From positions 186,001-250,000 of the forward strand of contig NVXV01000002.1 of the NCBI GenBank assembly GCA_002734085.1: a stretch of DNA of 64,000 bases, in the 5' to 3' direction. A program made the translations under genes and the position numbers. Below are positions 6,178-18,210 of this stretch, piece after piece; positions within the stretch are counted from its first letter, which is position 1, and the number at the start of each line of letters is the position of its first letter. The stretch comes from Fluviicola sp. (GTDB taxonomy: Bacteria > Bacteroidota > Bacteroidia > Flavobacteriales_D > Crocinitomicaceae). The notes under the pieces were generated by a model that was given only the letters and a program-made list of their open reading frames with translations, had not been told where the DNA came from and ran no database searches.

Positions 6178-6576
6178 TTACCAATACCCTTCTTCACCTT
6201 CAAACGCAATTTTTGTTAACGACCAGTATTTTACGCCACTATTTTTCTGCGCGCAATTAAAACAGCTTGATTTGTTTGTTTCTGAATTCGCACTAATATT
6301 TGTAGATCCGGTTTGCGTTTTTCCATTATTGAACGTCAGTTTATAACTTATTCGAACAGCTTGATTATTACTGTTTTTAAATTTGATATATCCTGAACCT
6401 CCAGAACTGTATTCACAGATTTTAAGATAAAGAAGTCTTTCTTGACCAGAGGTTCCCCAGGGATCCCAAGAGGTACACCGATTCTCTTTTGAACTGATGA
6501 CCTTGTTACTGTTAGTAGTAAAATCTTTAGTGGTGCTTAGCAACGAGATTAAACTTAAGATGATAAGTATTTTCAT
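6178..6576 (-). CDS. Small exported protein, unknown
   Basis: 132 residues with a short hydrophobic N-terminus (MKILIILSLISLLS) that could be a signal peptide. The mature part is rich in N, S and G and has four cysteines (RCTSW, KICEY, SCFNC), which could form two disulfides. A central segment (YIKFKNSNNQAVRISYKLTFNNGK) reads like one beta-sandwich sheet. No family recognised. It starts the block of secreted genes, and a strong terminator at 6627-6650 separates it from the regulator upstream, so it probably has its own promoter (box at 6600-6607). Confidence 0.7.
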   Translation of the reverse strand: MKILIILSLISLLSTTKDFTTNSNKVISSKENRCTSWDPWGTSGQERLLYLKICEYSSGGSGYIKFKNSNNQAVRISYKLTFNNGKTQTGSTNISANSETNKSSCFNCAQKNSGVKYWSLTKIAFEGEEGYW

Positions 6577-6651: not shown

Positions 6652-8895
6652 TTAAAGCCAATTTTTTTTCCTACACGTGTTTAGGAGCTCTGTAACACTA
6701 TTGACCTCTACTTTTCTCAGCATTTTTCTACGGTGAGTGTCTACTGTCGATTTACTAATATTTAATTCGTCTGCAATAATTTTACTTGACTTTCCTTGCT
6801 CTAAAAGCTGTAGAATTTCTCTTTCTCTGCGTGTAAATGGATTGTTTTCTTTTTTAGGGAGTTGTACTCCAATCATACAAACATCCTCTTTGTATTTCTC
6901 TAAGGCCTGATTGAGTTCTTTTTTCTGTTGTGCCATGTTTTTATGACGAATAGCAAGTAAAAGGTTTTTAATCTCATTGGAGTCATTCTTTTTCACTTTT
7001 TCTTTATTTAAGTGGTCGGTTTCTCCATCAGAAAACATATAGATACTATCTCCTCCTTTAATATTCACCGTTTGTGATACAAAAGAATCCTTTTGTTTTT
7101 CCCTTTTTTTAGTCAATTCAACTTCTTCTAAGACATTGTTCTTGTGTCTAACAATCCATAATGGATTTTTTGCCCCTGCCCACACAAGTGTTTCCGTACG
7201 TTCATTGAGTACACAGAGTGTAATATTCATGTTTTCCTTTATTTCATTTACAGAGTTTGAAAATGTATTTTTCATCAAATTGAAAGTAGTATTTAAAATA
7301 TCTGCGGGGTCTGTTTTATTTAATTCTTTAACAGTTTTGTTTAATGAACTTACACAGGATACACTTATCATTGCGCCAGAAGCTGAATTTCCTGTGTAAG
7401 CAGCAACGGCAAATAAGATGACATTTTCTTTCGCTTCCATCCAGTAGAAATTTCCGTTGACAATTTTTTTGGACTTATAAATAACAAAAGACGTATCAAA
7501 GTGCTGCTTCACTAATTTTACGGGAGGTAAAATAGAAGCCCGAAGGCGTTTGGCAGTGTCTATAGACGTGAGGATTTCTGTATTTTTTTCTTCTACAAGT
7601 TGTCGCTGTTGTTTTGCTATTCTATGTTCTTTTTTAGCAAGGTCACGTTGTTTTTCGGCTTCTAACTTTTGTATATTCACTTCGTCTTTTTGCTTTTCGA
7701 TAATTACTTTTTGTTGCTGTGCTTTTCGGAATCGATTGTACATGAATCCGGCAAATAACAATGTTAGACCTAAACCTCCTAAAAGTGCATACTGTTGACT
7801 GCGTTTGGCTTTAATTTCTGCGTCTTTTTTGTCTGATTCAGCTTGGGCTAACTTTTGTTCTTTAGCGTAATCCAAAGAGTCTAATGCTACTTGTTTTTCG
7901 TATTTATATTTGTACTCCTGTTGTATAACCGCCCGTTGATTTTCTTCGCTTTTAATGCTGTCTCTGGTTTGGACGAAAAGTTCGTGCATTTTAAGGGCAG
8001 CTTGATAATTACCTAGGTCTTTATGCGTTTTCCATAGGGATTCTGCTGCATTTTGAATTTCGAGATTGATCCCTAAATTTTGTGCTAAATCGAGTCCTTT
8101 TTTGCTGTAAGTCAATGCTTTTGAGTAGCTTTTCTGTTTGCGATATACATTACCAATATTAGTAAAAGACTTAGCTACTCCTAGTTGATTTCCATATTTT
8201 TTATTTGCTTCTAAACTTTGAAAATGGTAGTCAAGAGACACAGTAAACTCGCCTTTTTTGTCATAAATAATTCCAAGATTATTCAAGGGTTCAGCTACAT
8301 TTGTTTCCCCCTTAGTTCTTAAACTATTAAGACAATAATCGATAGCATCTTGGTATTTTCCTTTTCCAATGTATATGACAGCAATGTTATTTAAGGATTT
8401 AGCGATACCTACAGGGTCCTTTATAGCTTTAAAATAATCAAGACTCTTGGTGAAATTTTCAATTGCTTTATCATCTTCTCCTTTGTTCTGGTATAGAACA
8501 CCAATATTCCCAAGTGTACGAGCAGCGCCATTTTTATCGTTTAACTCTTCAAAAATGTTTAAACTTTTGAAATATATTTCAATGGCTTGTGAATAGTTCC
8601 CTTGAATGGCAAAAGAAATTCCTTGGAGTGTAAGTGCATCAGCTATTTGAGTTTTTAAGTTTCGTTTTTTAGCGAATTGATATGCTTGATTTGCAAAATG
8701 AAATGCACTATCTGGCTTTGAAAATAAATATCCTTTACGTGTGTAATTATATATAGCATCTAGTCTAGCTGTGTCAGGCTGATTTTTGTCTTGCCATACC
8801 GTCCATAAGGAGTCGCTAGTTTTTTTGGTGAGTGTGGGTTGGGCAAATGTAAAATTGAAAGAAATTAAAAGAATTAAAATGTAAAATAAACGCAT
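6652..8895 (-). CDS. Membrane TPR regulator with degenerate SpoIIE-type phosphatase domain and LuxR-type HTH
   Basis: 747 residues from ATG 8895; an in-frame start at 8946 would fall inside the likely -7 box. Order: signal peptide (ends near FTFAQ), about six or seven TPRs (residues 40-290), a coil, one membrane helix (about 370-390), a long coiled coil (390-450), a SpoIIE/PP2C-like domain (about 450-637) and a LuxR/GerE helix-turn-helix (about 682-747, FTRREREILQLLEQGKSSK). The phosphatase domain aligns with the Bacteroidota SpoIIE family, but the usual GGDFYW and VDCTGHG metal motifs read NGNFYW and VAAYTGNS, and MDIALC reads MNITLC; only FSDG remains. It is therefore probably catalytically dead. 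Likely an envelope-sensing transcription factor held in the inner membrane. Confidence 0.88.
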   Translation of the reverse strand: MRLFYILILLISFNFTFAQPTLTKKTSDSLWTVWQDKNQPDTARLDAIYNYTRKGYLFSKPDSAFHFANQAYQFAKKRNLKTQIADALTLQGISFAIQGNYSQAIEIYFKSLNIFEELNDKNGAARTLGNIGVLYQNKGEDDKAIENFTKSLDYFKAIKDPVGIAKSLNNIAVIYIGKGKYQDAIDYCLNSLRTKGETNVAEPLNNLGIIYDKKGEFTVSLDYHFQSLEANKKYGNQLGVAKSFTNIGNVYRKQKSYSKALTYSKKGLDLAQNLGINLEIQNAAESLWKTHKDLGNYQAALKMHELFVQTRDSIKSEENQRAVIQQEYKYKYEKQVALDSLDYAKEQKLAQAESDKKDAEIKAKRSQQYALLGGLGLTLLFAGFMYNRFRKAQQQKVIIEKQKDEVNIQKLEAEKQRDLAKKEHRIAKQQRQLVEEKNTEILTSIDTAKRLRASILPPVKLVKQHFDTSFVIYKSKKIVNGNFYWMEAKENVILFAVAAYTGNSASGAMISVSCVSSLNKTVKELNKTDPADILNTTFNLMKNTFSNSVNEIKENMNITLCVLNERTETLVWAGAKNPLWIVRHKNNVLEEVELTKKREKQKDSFVSQTVNIKGGDSIYMFSDGETDHLNKEKVKKNDSNEIKNLLLAIRHKNMAQQKKELNQALEKYKEDVCMIGVQLPKKENNPFTRREREILQLLEQGKSSKIIADELNISKSTVDTHRRKMLRKVEVNSVTELLNTCRKKNWL

Positions 8896-8943: not shown

Positions 8944-8951
8944 CAAAGTTA
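8944..8951 (-). promoter_or_regulatory. -7 box TAACTTTG for the TPR/LuxR regulator
   Basis: Matches TAnnTTTG and lies about 48 nt upstream of ATG 8895; no clear -33 box. It argues for the downstream start codon. Confidence 0.4.
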
Positions 8952-8977: not shown

Positions 8978-9276
8978 AGTAGCTAAAGAAATTTTTTATT
9001 TGATTAATGTTAATCGAAAAGCTGTATATAACAAAACACTTAGAGTTATTGACTAACTGAAACCACATTTAATTAATCAATAAATATAACAAAATACTTT
9101 AAAAATAAGGAATCTAAGAAGCTACCGAGGATTGTAAGAAATGTATAACACTCTTTATTAGTGTTAAATACAAAAGATCATCCGATTTTCATTTGGTTGA
9201 AGTTGATGATCAAAAAATTAAATTTCTTTAACACCCCACATTACCAATAAACAAAACATTTATTATCTTATCGCAA

Positions 9277-10044
9277 ATGAAAAATACTTTTTTCATGCAA
9301 AAAAGCCTAAGTCAACCTTCTATTGAGGTTGTAGGAACTACAATAACGGAGCCAGTAATTACGCTTACAGATCTTATGATTACGGCAGTATGCGTATATG
9401 CATTTTTTCAATTGAGAAAGCTAAATAGAAAAGGCAAGGTGCATAAATACATTCGCTGGTATTTTGGAATTATGGCGATAGCAACGCTCCTCGGAGGAAT
9501 ATTAGGGCACGCTTTTCAGGAGCAAATAGAATTAGCATGGAAGTTACCTGGTTGGCTCATTAGTATGTTAGCAGTTATGGCAGTTGAACGTGCTTCAATT
9601 ATACATGCAAAACCGCTTTTAAATAAAAAACTGGGAAAGTTCCTGGAAGTTGCTAACGTAATTGAGCTAATCACTTTCGCAGTACTTGCTTTTAGTACTT
9701 TGAATTTTTTCTTTATACAAATTCATTCTGCTTATGGTTTAGGACTGGTTGTTCTACCTATTCATTTTTATGTTTATTGGAAAACGAGAAACGAAGGAAG
9801 CCGTATATTCTTCCTCACTGTGATTTTTGCAACTTTAGCAGCATTTTTCTATACAAGCGAAATAGGTCTGAACAAATGGTTTAATCATTTAGATTTAGCA
9901 CATATAGTGATGGCAATTAGTATGTATTTGTTATATCTAGGGGCGAGGAAACTTGAAGTGTTAAAAAGGGATGATATAATAAAAGGATCGGGTGGTTTAA
10001 TTCAAGTTGTGAAGACTGCTTTGAAAAACACTTTCCATATTTAG
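9277..10044 (+). CDS. Orphan multi-pass membrane protein (paralogue of 17470-18210)
   Basis: 255 residues with about seven hydrophobic segments. Start is ATG 9277; a later Met (MQKSL, codon 7) is also possible. It shares a pattern with the product at 17470-18210: an EP near the first helix (TEPVITLTD), a GH in the second (GGILGHAF), a K-P-W segment (KLPGW) and a C-terminal WFNHLDLAHIVMA block. The spaced invariant E, H, D and H could be catalytic or metal-binding, somewhat like the CREST/alkaline-ceramidase membrane hydrolases, but that is only an idea. Flanked by 21-bp direct repeats. The gene stands alone between two minus-strand signalling genes. No function assigned. Confidence 0.8.
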   Translation: MKNTFFMQKSLSQPSIEVVGTTITEPVITLTDLMITAVCVYAFFQLRKLNRKGKVHKYIRWYFGIMAIATLLGGILGHAFQEQIELAWKLPGWLISMLAVMAVERASIIHAKPLLNKKLGKFLEVANVIELITFAVLAFSTLNFFFIQIHSAYGLGLVVLPIHFYVYWKTRNEGSRIFFLTVIFATLAAFFYTSEIGLNKWFNHLDLAHIVMAISMYLLYLGARKLEVLKRDDIIKGSGGLIQVVKTALKNTFHI

Positions 10045-10069: not shown

Positions 10070-10492
10070 TTAGGGAAGTTGAATTGTGTTTGTCCAGTAA
10101 TGTTTTAGAGTTTCAGCTATATCATCTAATTGAAAAATGTCATCTGGCTTGACAATGTAAGAACTAGATTGTTCTTTATAGGATTTTAGAATATCATCTT
10201 TTCTTGTAGAAGTTGTTAAAATAATAATTGGAATGTGCTTCCATTTGGGTACGGATTTTATTTTCTGTAGAGCTTCATGACCATCCATAATTGGCATGTT
10301 AAGATCCATTAAAATAATTGTGGGGGTTTCAACTTTTTGATAAGGCTCTTCTTTTTTTAGAAATTTAATAGCTTCAGCCCCGTTCTCCACATGAAAAAAG
10401 TTCGTAACGAATGACTGCTCTTCAAGAGCCTCCCTAACAAGAAAAGCATCTTCTTTATTGTCTTCTACTAATAAAACGACTAGTTTTTTCAT
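10070..10492 (-). CDS. Single-domain response regulator (CheY-like receiver)
   Basis: 140 residues that make one receiver domain and nothing else. The acidic pair is in LLVEDNKEDA, the phosphorylated aspartate is D63 in LMDLNMP, the conserved Thr/Ser is in LTTST, and the lysine is in YIVKP. The HAE-type insert and short length resemble the Rcp1 group of receivers that pair with PAS/GAF histidine kinases. It begins 2 bp after the stop codon of the histidine kinase gene at 10495, so the two are surely cotranscribed and are likely cognate partners. With no output domain, it probably acts by protein contact or phosphorelay. Confidence 0.93.
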   Translation of the reverse strand: MKKLVVLLVEDNKEDAFLVREALEEQSFVTNFFHVENGAEAIKFLKKEEPYQKVETPTIILMDLNMPIMDGHEALQKIKSVPKWKHIPIIILTTSTRKDDILKSYKEQSSSYIVKPDDIFQLDDIAETLKHYWTNTIQLP

Positions 10493-10494
10493 GA

Positions 10495-13400
10495 TTAAGA
10501 TGTTTTTGGTATGGTAAATATAAAAATAGTTCCTTGAGGTTTATTAGGTTCAAACCAAATTTTTCCACCATAAGCAGAAATAATTTTTTTACAAGTTGCT
10601 AAACCGATGCCTGTTCCAGTGTATTGAGAATTAGAATGTAGTCTTTTAAATATTTCAAAGACTCTTTTCTCATGTCTAGGTTCAATTCCTATACCGTTAT
10701 CTGCAACGCTAAATTTGTAAACTCCTTCATTTTCACTGAAATAAATATCTACCTCAACGTTGTTTCCTTCAGGTTGGTATTTAATCGCGTTATCGATTAA
10801 GTTTGTGAACAACTGTATAAATGTACTTACGTCACCTTTTACCTTTGGTAATTTAGTTTTTGATAATTTTATTGAACCTAAAGTCTCATCTTTTTGGTAA
10901 TTTTCAAAGATTAAGTTTAAGATATTGTCCAGATCTACTTCTTCACTTCCTACAGAACCCGTTTTTGAAAAGTCAAGAATGTCAGAAATAAGATCCTTCA
11001 TTCTAGTTGCATTGTTAGTAGCATTTTCTATGTAGTTGTTAGCTTTATCACTTAGCTCATCCCCATGCCTTTTGAGTAGAATGGATAAATATGTTGTTAT
11101 TCCTCTAAGTGGTTCTTTTAAATCGTGAGCGGCAACATGGGCAAACTGTTCAAGTTCTTCATTTTTTTGCTCTAATTCACGTTGCATTGTTAAAATATGA
11201 CTAATGTCTGAAGCAGTGAATAAATATCCTTTATTATCCGTTTTTATTTCAGATACAGATAAAATTACGGGGAGCAAAGTACCGTTACTCTTCTTCAAGG
11301 TCCATTCTCTAAAACCTTCATCCTCTAAATGAGTTAAAGCGTTAAATAGTTTATAGTCGTTCTTTTCTTCAATTTTATGACCGAGAAGTTGCTTAGAAAC
11401 TATTTCCCATTCACTTTCCAGAAATATGAGATCTCGAATACTTTCTCCAATCACTTTATCCCCTTCAAAACCTAGTAGTTTTTCAGTTCCAATGTTATTA
11501 CTTTTGATAATACCATCTTTATCAGTGGAAATCAGAGCTACTTTAGTTGTAGAATCCATTACGGCTTTGTTTTCCGCCAAAAGAGCCGTTAACTTGAGTT
11601 CAGCTTCCTTTCTTTTTGAGAGATCAACTATTTGTGAGATAAAATAAAGTATATTGTCTTCAGCATCTTTCACCATCGATACTGAGAGAAGAATATATAC
11701 TGTGTGGCCGTCTTTATGGAAATATCTTTTTTCCATCTGATAATGATTCCTTTTGCCTTCAATCATTTCAGTTAATAACGAAACATCTATATCTAAATCA
11801 TCAGGGTGAGTGATATCTTGAAAGGTTAATTTTATTAATTCCTCCCTTGTATACCCAACAATTTTACAAACTTCATCATTTACTTTTAACCATCTTCCTT
11901 CTTTGTCTAGAAGAGCCATTCCTATAGCTGCATTTTCAAAGTTTCCTCGAAACGCTTCTTCACTTATTCTTAGAGCTTCTTCATTCCTTTTTCGTTCCGT
12001 TATCTCTTGATGGATACCAAACATCATAAGTGGAGAACCGTCTTCTTTCCATTCAAATACATTGCCCCTTGAATAAACCCATGCCCAGTTACCAGATTTG
12101 TGTTTCATTCTAACTTCTACTTCATAATAATCTGTTTTTCCTTCAAAACATTCCTGGAGTAATTTATTTGATTTTTTTAGATCCTCTGGATGAACTAGTT
12201 TGTTCCAAGTTTCAATATTAACTGGAGCTAGCTCATCTAGTGTGTAACCTACAATTTCAGCCCATCGATTATTGAATATGGTGTCTCCGGTTTGTATGTT
12301 CCACTCCCAAGTCCCAATATCTGTTCCTTTAATAACGGACTTGAATTTCCGTCTGGCGTATACCAAATCTTGAATGATTCGTCCTTCAGGAATCACATAT
12401 ATCACGTTTCCTTTTTCATCAAAAATTGGTTTTAGGCTAAATAATATAGTAGTTGGTGTTTTATTTGCTACCCAAACGGCTACTTCATAGGATACGGATT
12501 CTCCAGAAAGAGCTTTTTTGAAATTAGCTTTGAGTTCAACTCTAGTCTCTTTTGATATTTGCCACCAATAGCAGTCCCAAAAATACTTGCCAATTACATC
12601 ACTGTGTTTAATTCCTGCAACATCAACAGCAGTATTATTGACATCAAGTAGCACTCCATCTCGGTTAAGAAAACCTATAAATGAAAAGCTTGAATTGAAA
12701 ATACCTTTAAATTTCAATTCATTCTCTTTGATCTCAGTTATATCCTGGAAACTACCAATAACTTTATCTTCGGCTTTCCAACCGGTTGACCTGACCCACT
12801 TTTGATTATTCTTTGCTGTAATAAGAATACAATTTACATCGAAAGGTTCATTTTTCTCTATACAGTTAGTAAGAGCTTCTATAACAATCGGTCTATGTTT
12901 TGGATGATAAAATTCGATTCCTTTTGCTTTGTTATGGTCAAAGTTTAATGGTAATTCATGAATTTCATAAACCATATCGCTCCAGGTTGTTTCTCCGGTC
13001 GCAATAATCATTTCCCAAACACCAATTTGATTTGTTTGTTGAATTTCTTGCAATAACTTATTGTTAGATATGAGTTGCTGATTGGCCAGCTCTAATTTAA
13101 CTTGATTTTTGCTAAGTTCTATTAATTTGATTGTCTGATTGGATAATCCTTCGAGTAGCTCGTATTGTTTGTCATTAATTTTGTTAGGCTTGTCATCGAT
13201 TAAAATCAATGCTCCTAATGGTAAACCATCGTTGTTGACCAAAGGAAATTCGGCATAAAAGACTATAGTAGTGTCCTTAGAGGTATTAGATTGTTTTGTG
13301 AAATCCTGTTCTCTGCGAACATCCTCGATAACCAAAGGATCAATAGGTTCATCAAGCGTCTGGAGGTAAAAAGGAATGTTTTTTAACGTTTCATTTAGCT

Positions 13401-13596
13401 TTTCACCATAAAGTGAAAGTATAAATTCATCGTTATTTGCAATTAAACAGATGAGAGAAGTATTAATATTACAAACTTGAGCAGCAGTAGAGGTTATGAA
13501 ATCATAGTCTTTACTTTTCTTAGCTCCAGATATGAAGTGAGAGTTTGTCTGTTCTAATCCCTCATGTTTATTTAAAAATGACCTTTGTTCTTCCAT
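10495..13596 (-). CDS. Multi-PAS/GAF sensor histidine kinase
   Basis: 1033 residues from ATG 13596; an upstream TTG would add three residues. Order: N-terminal GAF domain (about 15-165), four or five PAS/PAC domains (about 185-800, with motifs such as GTWEWNIQTGD and GYTREELIKLTF), a coiled coil, a HisKA dimerisation helix with the phospho-acceptor His near residue 825 (HVAAHDLKEPLR), and a HATPase domain with N box (IDNAIKYQP), DNGIGI and GTGIGLATCKKI. There are no membrane helices, so it is a soluble kinase that senses cytoplasmic signals, perhaps redox, light or ligand through PAS. Its partner is the receiver encoded 2 bp downstream. Confidence 0.95.
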   Translation of the reverse strand: MEEQRSFLNKHEGLEQTNSHFISGAKKSKDYDFITSTAAQVCNINTSLICLIANNDEFILSLYGEKLNETLKNIPFYLQTLDEPIDPLVIEDVRREQDFTKQSNTSKDTTIVFYAEFPLVNNDGLPLGALILIDDKPNKINDKQYELLEGLSNQTIKLIELSKNQVKLELANQQLISNNKLLQEIQQTNQIGVWEMIIATGETTWSDMVYEIHELPLNFDHNKAKGIEFYHPKHRPIVIEALTNCIEKNEPFDVNCILITAKNNQKWVRSTGWKAEDKVIGSFQDITEIKENELKFKGIFNSSFSFIGFLNRDGVLLDVNNTAVDVAGIKHSDVIGKYFWDCYWWQISKETRVELKANFKKALSGESVSYEVAVWVANKTPTTILFSLKPIFDEKGNVIYVIPEGRIIQDLVYARRKFKSVIKGTDIGTWEWNIQTGDTIFNNRWAEIVGYTLDELAPVNIETWNKLVHPEDLKKSNKLLQECFEGKTDYYEVEVRMKHKSGNWAWVYSRGNVFEWKEDGSPLMMFGIHQEITERKRNEEALRISEEAFRGNFENAAIGMALLDKEGRWLKVNDEVCKIVGYTREELIKLTFQDITHPDDLDIDVSLLTEMIEGKRNHYQMEKRYFHKDGHTVYILLSVSMVKDAEDNILYFISQIVDLSKRKEAELKLTALLAENKAVMDSTTKVALISTDKDGIIKSNNIGTEKLLGFEGDKVIGESIRDLIFLESEWEIVSKQLLGHKIEEKNDYKLFNALTHLEDEGFREWTLKKSNGTLLPVILSVSEIKTDNKGYLFTASDISHILTMQRELEQKNEELEQFAHVAAHDLKEPLRGITTYLSILLKRHGDELSDKANNYIENATNNATRMKDLISDILDFSKTGSVGSEEVDLDNILNLIFENYQKDETLGSIKLSKTKLPKVKGDVSTFIQLFTNLIDNAIKYQPEGNNVEVDIYFSENEGVYKFSVADNGIGIEPRHEKRVFEIFKRLHSNSQYTGTGIGLATCKKIISAYGGKIWFEPNKPQGTIFIFTIPKTS

Positions 13597-13655
13597 TACC
13601 AACAATTATCAGTCATTTTTACATGACTCATTATTTTTTGCTCCTCTATTTATTA

Positions 13656-17371: not shown

Positions 17372-17457
17372 GAATAGTTTTATGGATTTACTTCGTCATT
17401 TTATTACTATTTCTGAATGTTTCTTTTGATGAATAGAGGAAATTGATTGGAAAAATT

Positions 17458-17465
17458 TATTTTTG
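17458..17465 (+). promoter_or_regulatory. -7 box TATTTTTG directly before the orphan membrane gene
   Basis: Exact box with 4 nt (TACC) to ATG 17470, a mirror of the recR arrangement; candidate leaderless mRNA. Confidence 0.5.
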
Positions 17466-17469
17466 TACC

Positions 17470-18210
17470 ATGTTTTTGTCAGTTGAATATTTTTGTGAAT
17501 TACCCGTTGAAAAGTTACCCTTTAAAATGTTTGGTTTATGCTTGCAGGAGCCTATGGCGCTGGTAACTAACTGGATTATAGCGATTACAGCTTTAATTAT
17601 TTACCTTAAGTTTAAGCCAGTTCAGAATGAATTCCAACGTCATTGGAAGATGTTTTACCTCACCTTTGGACTGAGTACTTTCTTTGCTGGCTTTGGACAC
17701 GTTTTTTTCAATTACACATTTGTTTACGGCAAATTTCCGACTTGGATTTTAGGTACTTTCGCTGCTTATCACGCATCAAAAGCTATGATTAGTCTTGATG
17801 TGATAAGTCCGATTCTCAAGAAACGACTGAATTATCTTATTTATATAAAAGCTGCCTTATTTTTAAGTTTAGCAATTGTTCTTCAAAGTTTTTTGTTTAT
17901 AATGGCAGATGCAGTGTTGACATATCTGTTTTTCTGCATGGGGTTTGGTGCGCATTATTGGAAGAAAGGTTTAAAATCATTTAAATATACAGTGATTGCA
18001 GTTATCATATTATTCCCGTCCATTTTTATTTTTACACTAAAGTTTAATCCGCACATTTGGTTTAACAAAGATGATTTGAGTCATATTTTGATGGCAGCAA
18101 CAATAATTTTCTTTTACTTTGGGGTCGCGAAACTCAATCAACTTGATTTAGACAGAGTGATAAGCCTTAAAGATTTAAAGTATGTCGAAAAACAATCCAG
18201 TAAACATTAA
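17470..18210 (+). CDS. Orphan multi-pass membrane protein (paralogue of 9277-10044)
   Basis: 246 residues from ATG 17470, with about seven hydrophobic helices. A TTG at 17443 lies upstream of the -7 box and is unlikely to be the start; ATG 17527 (MFGLCLQEP) is an alternative. Shared with the other paralogue: QEP near helix 1, AGFGHVFF in helix 2, KFPTW, and HIWFNKDDLSHILMA near the C-terminus. Conserved E, H, D and H hint at an active or metal site in the membrane. Its end overlaps smpB by 29 bp, so both are probably on one transcript. Function unknown. Confidence 0.78.
   Translation: MFLSVEYFCELPVEKLPFKMFGLCLQEPMALVTNWIIAITALIIYLKFKPVQNEFQRHWKMFYLTFGLSTFFAGFGHVFFNYTFVYGKFPTWILGTFAAYHASKAMISLDVISPILKKRLNYLIYIKAALFLSLAIVLQSFLFIMADAVLTYLFFCMGFGAHYWKKGLKSFKYTVIAVIILFPSIFIFTLKFNPHIWFNKDDLSHILMAATIIFFYFGVAKLNQLDLDRVISLKDLKYVEKQSSKH

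Follow-up and report, generated by a model that had tools for sequence, protein, structure and literature searches.

The 747-aa protein encoded in a 64,000-nucleotide stretch of Fluviicola sp. DNA (the window) carries TPR, SpoIIE and GerE parts, in that order, within one chain, and the metal site of its SpoIIE domain has been lost. Comparison with related proteins gives good support to the view that it is a single pseudophosphatase variant of a rare, otherwise intact fusion group. On balance, we lean towards a membrane-tethered one-component transcription regulator that descends from an intact ancestor similar to L141, the nearest fusion found, and whose SpoIIE/PP2C domain is a pseudophosphatase that relays a signal.

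Results

Domain layout of the 747-aa protein

The ORF is real and intact, with the ATG at 8895 as its likely start, and its GC and GC3 are alike across the four parts of the gene (Table 1). The TPR, SpoIIE and GerE parts each exceeded the Pfam cut-off: TPR_12 scored 106.1 bits, SpoIIE (PF07228, residues 493–678) 43.6 bits versus a cut-off of 25 (47.5 bits in the genome scan), and GerE 64.5 bits versus a cut-off of 23.5. The HTH is intact and sits directly behind the last strand of the SpoIIE domain. An earlier note on this DNA, made from the sequence by eye, had read a SpoIIE-family domain, a C-terminal LuxR HTH and TPRs in this protein; the Pfam matches confirm all three, and for the SpoIIE domain the fold match described below does so too. 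Response_reg had no Pfam match in the protein, and hence the layout of RssB, with a receiver before PP2C, does not apply. NCBIfam gave partial matches only, far under the equivalog cut-offs (the best was SiaA, 86.7 bits versus 700), so that the protein belongs to no named NCBIfam family. A reading as a defence system was rejected, the PADLOC matches being confined to generic TPR and HTH models.

The TPR superhelix is probably the periplasmic sensor part. The note had also described one membrane helix and a coiled coil. The latter was recovered as a long modelled helix with 40–60% identity to homologues, but the single membrane helix is only probable: segment 369–386 is of moderate hydrophobicity, under the 1.6 hydropathy cut that equivalent helices of several homologues exceed, and its pLDDT is low in the full-length model.

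Table 1. Features of the regulator gene and its upstream DNA (window positions).
Feature	Position	Strand	Basis or remark
Whole gene, 747-aa SP-TPR-TM-coiled coil-pseudo-SpoIIE-GerE protein	6652..8895	-	ORF, Pfam and NCBIfam
Signal-peptide-like N-terminus, residues 1–18, MRLFYILILLISFNFTFA	8842..8895	-	Sequence; hydrophobic segment
TPR superhelix, residues about 41–294	8014..8775	-	Pfam TPR_12, TPR_1; high-pLDDT helix pairs in full-length model
Membrane helix (probable), residues about 369–386, YALLGGLGLTLLFAGFMY, then NRFRK	7738..7791	-	Sequence
Cytoplasmic long helix/coiled coil linker, residues about 387–465	7501..7737	-	Continuous helix in both models
SpoIIE/PP2C-fold domain with dead metal site, residues about 466–680	6856..7500	-	Pfam; fold match; motif losses
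D482N, motif GDFYW (codon AAT)	7450..7452	-	Asp in 62/63 other domains
D499A, motif DCTGHG (codon GCT)	7399..7401	-	Asp in 63/63 other domains
D557N, motif GMD (codon AAT)	7225..7227	-	Asp in 62/63 other domains
D623 of FSDG, retained acid	7027..7029	-	Asp in 63/63 other domains, kept here
D670E of DD motif (codon GAG), after 6-residue deletion	6886..6888	-	Asp in 62/63 other domains; alignment
GerE/LuxR-type HTH, residues 686–737	6685..6840	-	Pfam 64.5 bits; sequence matches SsrB, EsrB, NarL
TAACTTTG, match to Bacteroidota -7 element, about 49 nt upstream of ATG	8944..8951	-	Weak; near chance frequency in the window
Palindrome GATTAATGTTAATC, named in the earlier note	9002..9015		Exists; chance level

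Loss of the metal site

The SpoIIE domain was compared to 63 others from the same genome, family and class. Three of its four expected metal-ligand acids are lost (D482N, D499A and D670E), which leaves the site with just the acids D623 and D671; the other 63 domains all keep the equivalents of D499 and D623, and each other acid is kept in 62 of them. The changes extend to C500Y, H503N, G504S, G555N and D557N, QFGG and DGMD, two loops conserved elsewhere, are absent, and six residues are missing before the DD motif, which reads ED (YK------EDVCM versus WKGELEQVDDVCV). Structural residues that are conserved in the family, among them G502, G507, A575 and G624, are kept. Of the 53 columns in which at least 85% of the 63 other domains agree, 22 were changed here; the other domains had 2.2 such changes on average and 15 at most, so that the motif losses exceed chance.

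The metal-coordinating side chains of SpoIIE are those of D628, D746 and D795 (PMC5468089), to which D499, D623 and D670, respectively, correspond in motif order, a mapping by motif and not from superposed coordinates. By analogy with SpoIIE D628, the D499 position would be that of the bridging metal ligand (PMC5468089).

The motifs that the earlier note had listed (NGNFYW, VAAYTGNSASGAM, NMNITLC and an intact YMFSDG) are all present in the sequence, and its view of the metal site as dead holds when D482N, D499A and D670E are set against 63 relatives that keep the acids. The losses that it named were correct, but the ED motif, the six-residue deletion and the loss of the QFGG and DGMD loops had escaped it. 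Catalytic death of the domain is well supported by these alignments, and we infer that phosphatase activity is absent.

Predicted fold

An AF2 model of residues 425–747 (pLDDT 80.6, pTM 0.72) has the alpha-beta-beta-alpha arrangement of the PP2C fold and retains the helices after motif 2. Fold comparison (Foldseek, VIA-align) matched it to SiaA (Z 25.6, rmsd 3.1, 234 aligned), RsbU of Rv1364c (Z 21.3), P. aeruginosa RssB (Z 20.8) and SpoIIE (Z 17.9). Modelling, which the earlier note had proposed as a check, therefore still builds a PP2C fold from the altered sequence, one that is partly imposed because five intact PP2C relatives were included in the AlphaFold input alignment. In the full-length model (pLDDT 71.6, pTM 0.42) the TPR superhelix is predicted with high confidence, and one long helix passes through the membrane and coiled-coil region, with its middle low in confidence.

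Other SpoIIE-GerE fusions

Searches with a profile spanning the SpoIIE tail and the HTH, together with a protein search, yielded 13 other SpoIIE-GerE fusions (L067, L068, L069, L135, L136, L137, L138, L139, L140, L141, L147, L148 and L149). The genomes scanned with the profile numbered about 400 from the order, 395 from the class, 240 from the family (all of them), 395 from the phylum and 46 (again all) from the family to which G602, the genome that carries L141, belongs; at the thresholds used (1e-27 to 1e-35), fusions more degenerate than the 747-aa protein (1e-54 to 1e-62) could be missed. All 13 keep the metal-site motifs intact. The fusion is thus rare in these searches, and the dead site is restricted to the 747-aa protein among those found. 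This speaks against the idea, raised in the earlier note, that a degenerate site joined to an HTH forms a class. The same note had set against its own reading the case in which homologues of the same architecture are intact and this protein carries a lone mutation. The first half of that case is correct, as L141 and the others are intact, but the loss is extensive and confined to the SpoIIE domain, with the core intact; as judged from the alignments, the dead site is no lone point mutation.

L141, from the same class but another family, shares with the window protein its domain order, a DSLW N-terminus, the NNWI/KNWL end and 46% identity in the SpoIIE domain, whereas it keeps GDFYW, DCTG, GMD, SDG and DD and its TPR part is only 32% identical. 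In L141, DCTGHG reads DCTGYG, with Tyr replacing the conserved His (the H503 equivalent), possibly an early step of site change. L067, L068 and L069, of the same family as the window protein (propeller-YYY-TM-SpoIIE-GerE), likewise have GerE after SpoIIE with the same spacing, but their sensor is a beta-propeller (recognised in L067 and L068) rather than TPR, and their metal site is intact.

No orthologue sharing the dead site was found in the genomes searched. A whole-protein search of nine congeners (E <= 1e-100) returned only intact TPR-SpoIIE proteins without HTH, a scan of genome contigs only five remote TPR-SpoIIE loci (one MAG), and a scan of viral contigs three HTH matches and no SpoIIE relative. 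Among the open-access papers searched, none joining SpoIIE, TPR, LuxR, phosphatase and Bacteroidetes was found, and a PHLPP review was the only match for SpoIIE with pseudophosphatase.

The searches also brought up L150 (G652:C8), an intact SpoIIE protein followed, past its stop and in the same frame, by an apparent weak GerE remnant with two stops; it is possibly the reverse situation, a fusion that lost its HTH to decay but kept its phosphatase. The genome of the window itself holds an unusually large set of about 20 further SpoIIE domains, and a cluster of three TPR-SpoIIE genes (L073, G000:C25:474000-486500).

Origin and rate of evolution

L141 is the nearest relative in architecture (TPR-TM-SpoIIE-GerE) and in the SpoIIE and HTH trees, where it clusters with the window protein with support of 86 and 90, respectively; the TPR part clusters instead with a paralogue from the same genome, own_C25_45 (support 92). 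Support of this order is moderate, and the window protein, with its long SpoIIE branch, could be misplaced in that tree. The simplest reading of the trees is that an intact SpoIIE-GerE ancestor was inactivated later and that the TPR part has had an independent history.

At 1.13, the SpoIIE branch of the window protein is the longest in its tree (the next longest is 0.60), whereas its TPR branch (0.57) is the third shortest and its HTH branch is ordinary. In relative-rate tests with L141 as the sister and three outgroups, the SpoIIE domain showed 41–49 window-only versus 11–15 sister-only changes (p 2e-5 to 1e-4; for example 49 to 15, p 2.4e-5), while the TPR part was not faster and the HTH excess was not significant. 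Other pairs of sister and outgroup gave weaker or no significance, such as own_C25_45 with L141 as the outgroup (p 0.74). The hydrophobic core was retained in 56 of 62 columns, and 17 of the 23 core columns that differ from the consensus are still hydrophobic (p 0.001, background 0.40). Fast evolution is thus limited to the SpoIIE domain, with its hydrophobic core kept. A fold that stayed under selection after catalysis was lost would fit this pattern better than free decay, and weak selection on a spacer is possible.

Upstream DNA and neighbourhood

No clear -33 element was found upstream of the gene start. The palindrome at 9002–9015, to which the earlier note had looked as a binding site, was rejected as an autoregulatory site and lends no support: the window contains 274 comparable palindromes, with a 6-bp-arm one about every 234 bp, and elsewhere in the 4.03-Mb genome the sequence recurs just once, within a coding gene of L146.

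The regulator gene is flanked on one side by genes for a divergent DUF6962 membrane protein, a lone receiver and a histidine kinase with several PAS domains, and on the other by genes for small proteins that are secreted or carry WG repeats. Synteny revealed no orthologue of the regulator in G008, the closest congener, which has the DUF6962 neighbour at 72% identity but no other window gene nearby. The window encodes two DUF6962-like proteins (9277–10044 and 17443–18210; 72% and 26% identity to that of the congener). The lone receiver and the 1036-aa PAS histidine kinase beside it (10070–13605) are probably one signalling pair. A 132-aa protein without a Pfam match is encoded downstream of the regulator gene (6178–6576, minus strand).

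Discussion

The SpoIIE domain of the window protein probably works as a mechanical relay and not as an enzyme. In the most likely mechanism, binding of a ligand or partner to the TPR domain would alter the dimeric coiled coil; this change would shift the alpha1/alpha2 switch helices that the PP2C fold has retained, much as happens in SpoIIE and RssB; and the shift would free, block or pair the fused GerE HTHs and so alter transcription. The relay, the dimerisation, the ligand, the target genes and DNA binding by the HTH are all postulated here. We propose that the switch passes the state of the TPR and coiled-coil parts to the HTH because a long helix lies ahead of the SpoIIE domain, the helices after motif 2 are kept, the metal ligands are gone and the HTH lies right behind the domain. 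When SpoIIE dimerises, contact with a long regulatory helix makes its alpha1/alpha2 switch helices rotate, and the M2 metal is recruited; in RssB the PP2C switch governs adaptor function without phosphatase activity (PMC5468089); E. coli RssB retains just one of the three metal Asp residues of RsbX (PMC7226468).

RssB of E. coli and P. aeruginosa thus resembles the window protein in having a PP2C fold without phosphatase function (Z 20.8), a helical linker ahead of it and lost metal Asp (PMC7226468), but it is a soluble ClpXP adaptor for sigma S that has a receiver and no HTH, TPR or membrane helix. With this precedent, the allosteric or protein-binding role suggested in the earlier note is plausible by analogy. 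SiaA, RsbU and SpoIIE share fold and family with the window domain, SiaA being the best match in both sequence and structure; these, however, are active metal-dependent phosphatases on STAS-type partners and have no HTH. PHLPP2 is likewise a PPM/PP2C pseudophosphatase through metal-ligand loss (PMC12002173), but is a eukaryotic LRR/PH protein without a DNA-binding domain.

The relay is favoured because the acids are lost in comparison to 63 relatives, fast change is limited to the SpoIIE domain, the core, fold and HTH are kept, and RssB provides a precedent. Against it stand the failure to find orthologues with the same dead site, the intact relatives that push the AF2 model towards the PP2C fold, the pairs of sister and outgroup for which the rate excess was not significant, and the fast rate of the SpoIIE domain, which also fits decay of an unneeded module. 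Such decay, in which fusion to the HTH made the phosphatase dispensable and the SpoIIE domain is now a drifting spacer, with the signal passing by coiled-coil dimerisation alone, is a possible explanation but one that we doubt. The rate acceleration is confined to that domain, an in-frame deletion falls within a conserved loop and no other dead member was found among the fusions, all of which it would account for; a drifting domain would not be expected, however, to score well over the Pfam cut-off, to keep G502, G507, A575 and G624, and to hold hydrophobic residues at core positions more often than chance.

The dead domain might instead still bind the phosphoprotein, for example a STAS protein, on which the active SpoIIE paralogues work, with binding or titration controlling the HTH. 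Candidate partners exist, as several STAS proteins are encoded in the same genome beside the other SpoIIE domains, and PHLPP2, although no longer catalytic, may still bind substrate (PMC12002173); yet several loops of the active-site face are also changed or deleted, and neither a STAS nor a kinase gene adjoins the regulator gene, which leaves this alternative unlikely. That the domain has remained a phosphatase, its metals held in an unusual way by D623, E670 and D671, is very improbable: acids are present at these three positions, but D499, which is Asp in all 63 relatives and equals SpoIIE D628, is now Ala, the Asp of GDFYW is now Asn, and H503, G504 and D557 are lost.

We put at about even the chances of a more specific form of the relay, in which a PP2C pseudophosphatase would be an allosteric switch linking a TPR sensor anchored in the membrane to a fused LuxR HTH, as a bacterial counterpart of RssB with DNA-binding output instead of proteolysis, catalysis having been dropped after direct transcriptional output was gained.

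SpoIIE-type phosphatases usually act on transcription indirectly, via anti-sigma antagonists. The 14 fusions put the DNA-binding output in the SpoIIE chain, and one of them has lost the catalytic site and kept the fold. A fusion of this kind agrees with the proposal of a PP2C switch that is able to work in the absence of catalysis, and of pseudoenzymes as pre-wired intermediates (PMC5468089). Comparison of the dead protein to the intact L141-type fusions would separate the role of the switch from that of the phosphatase.
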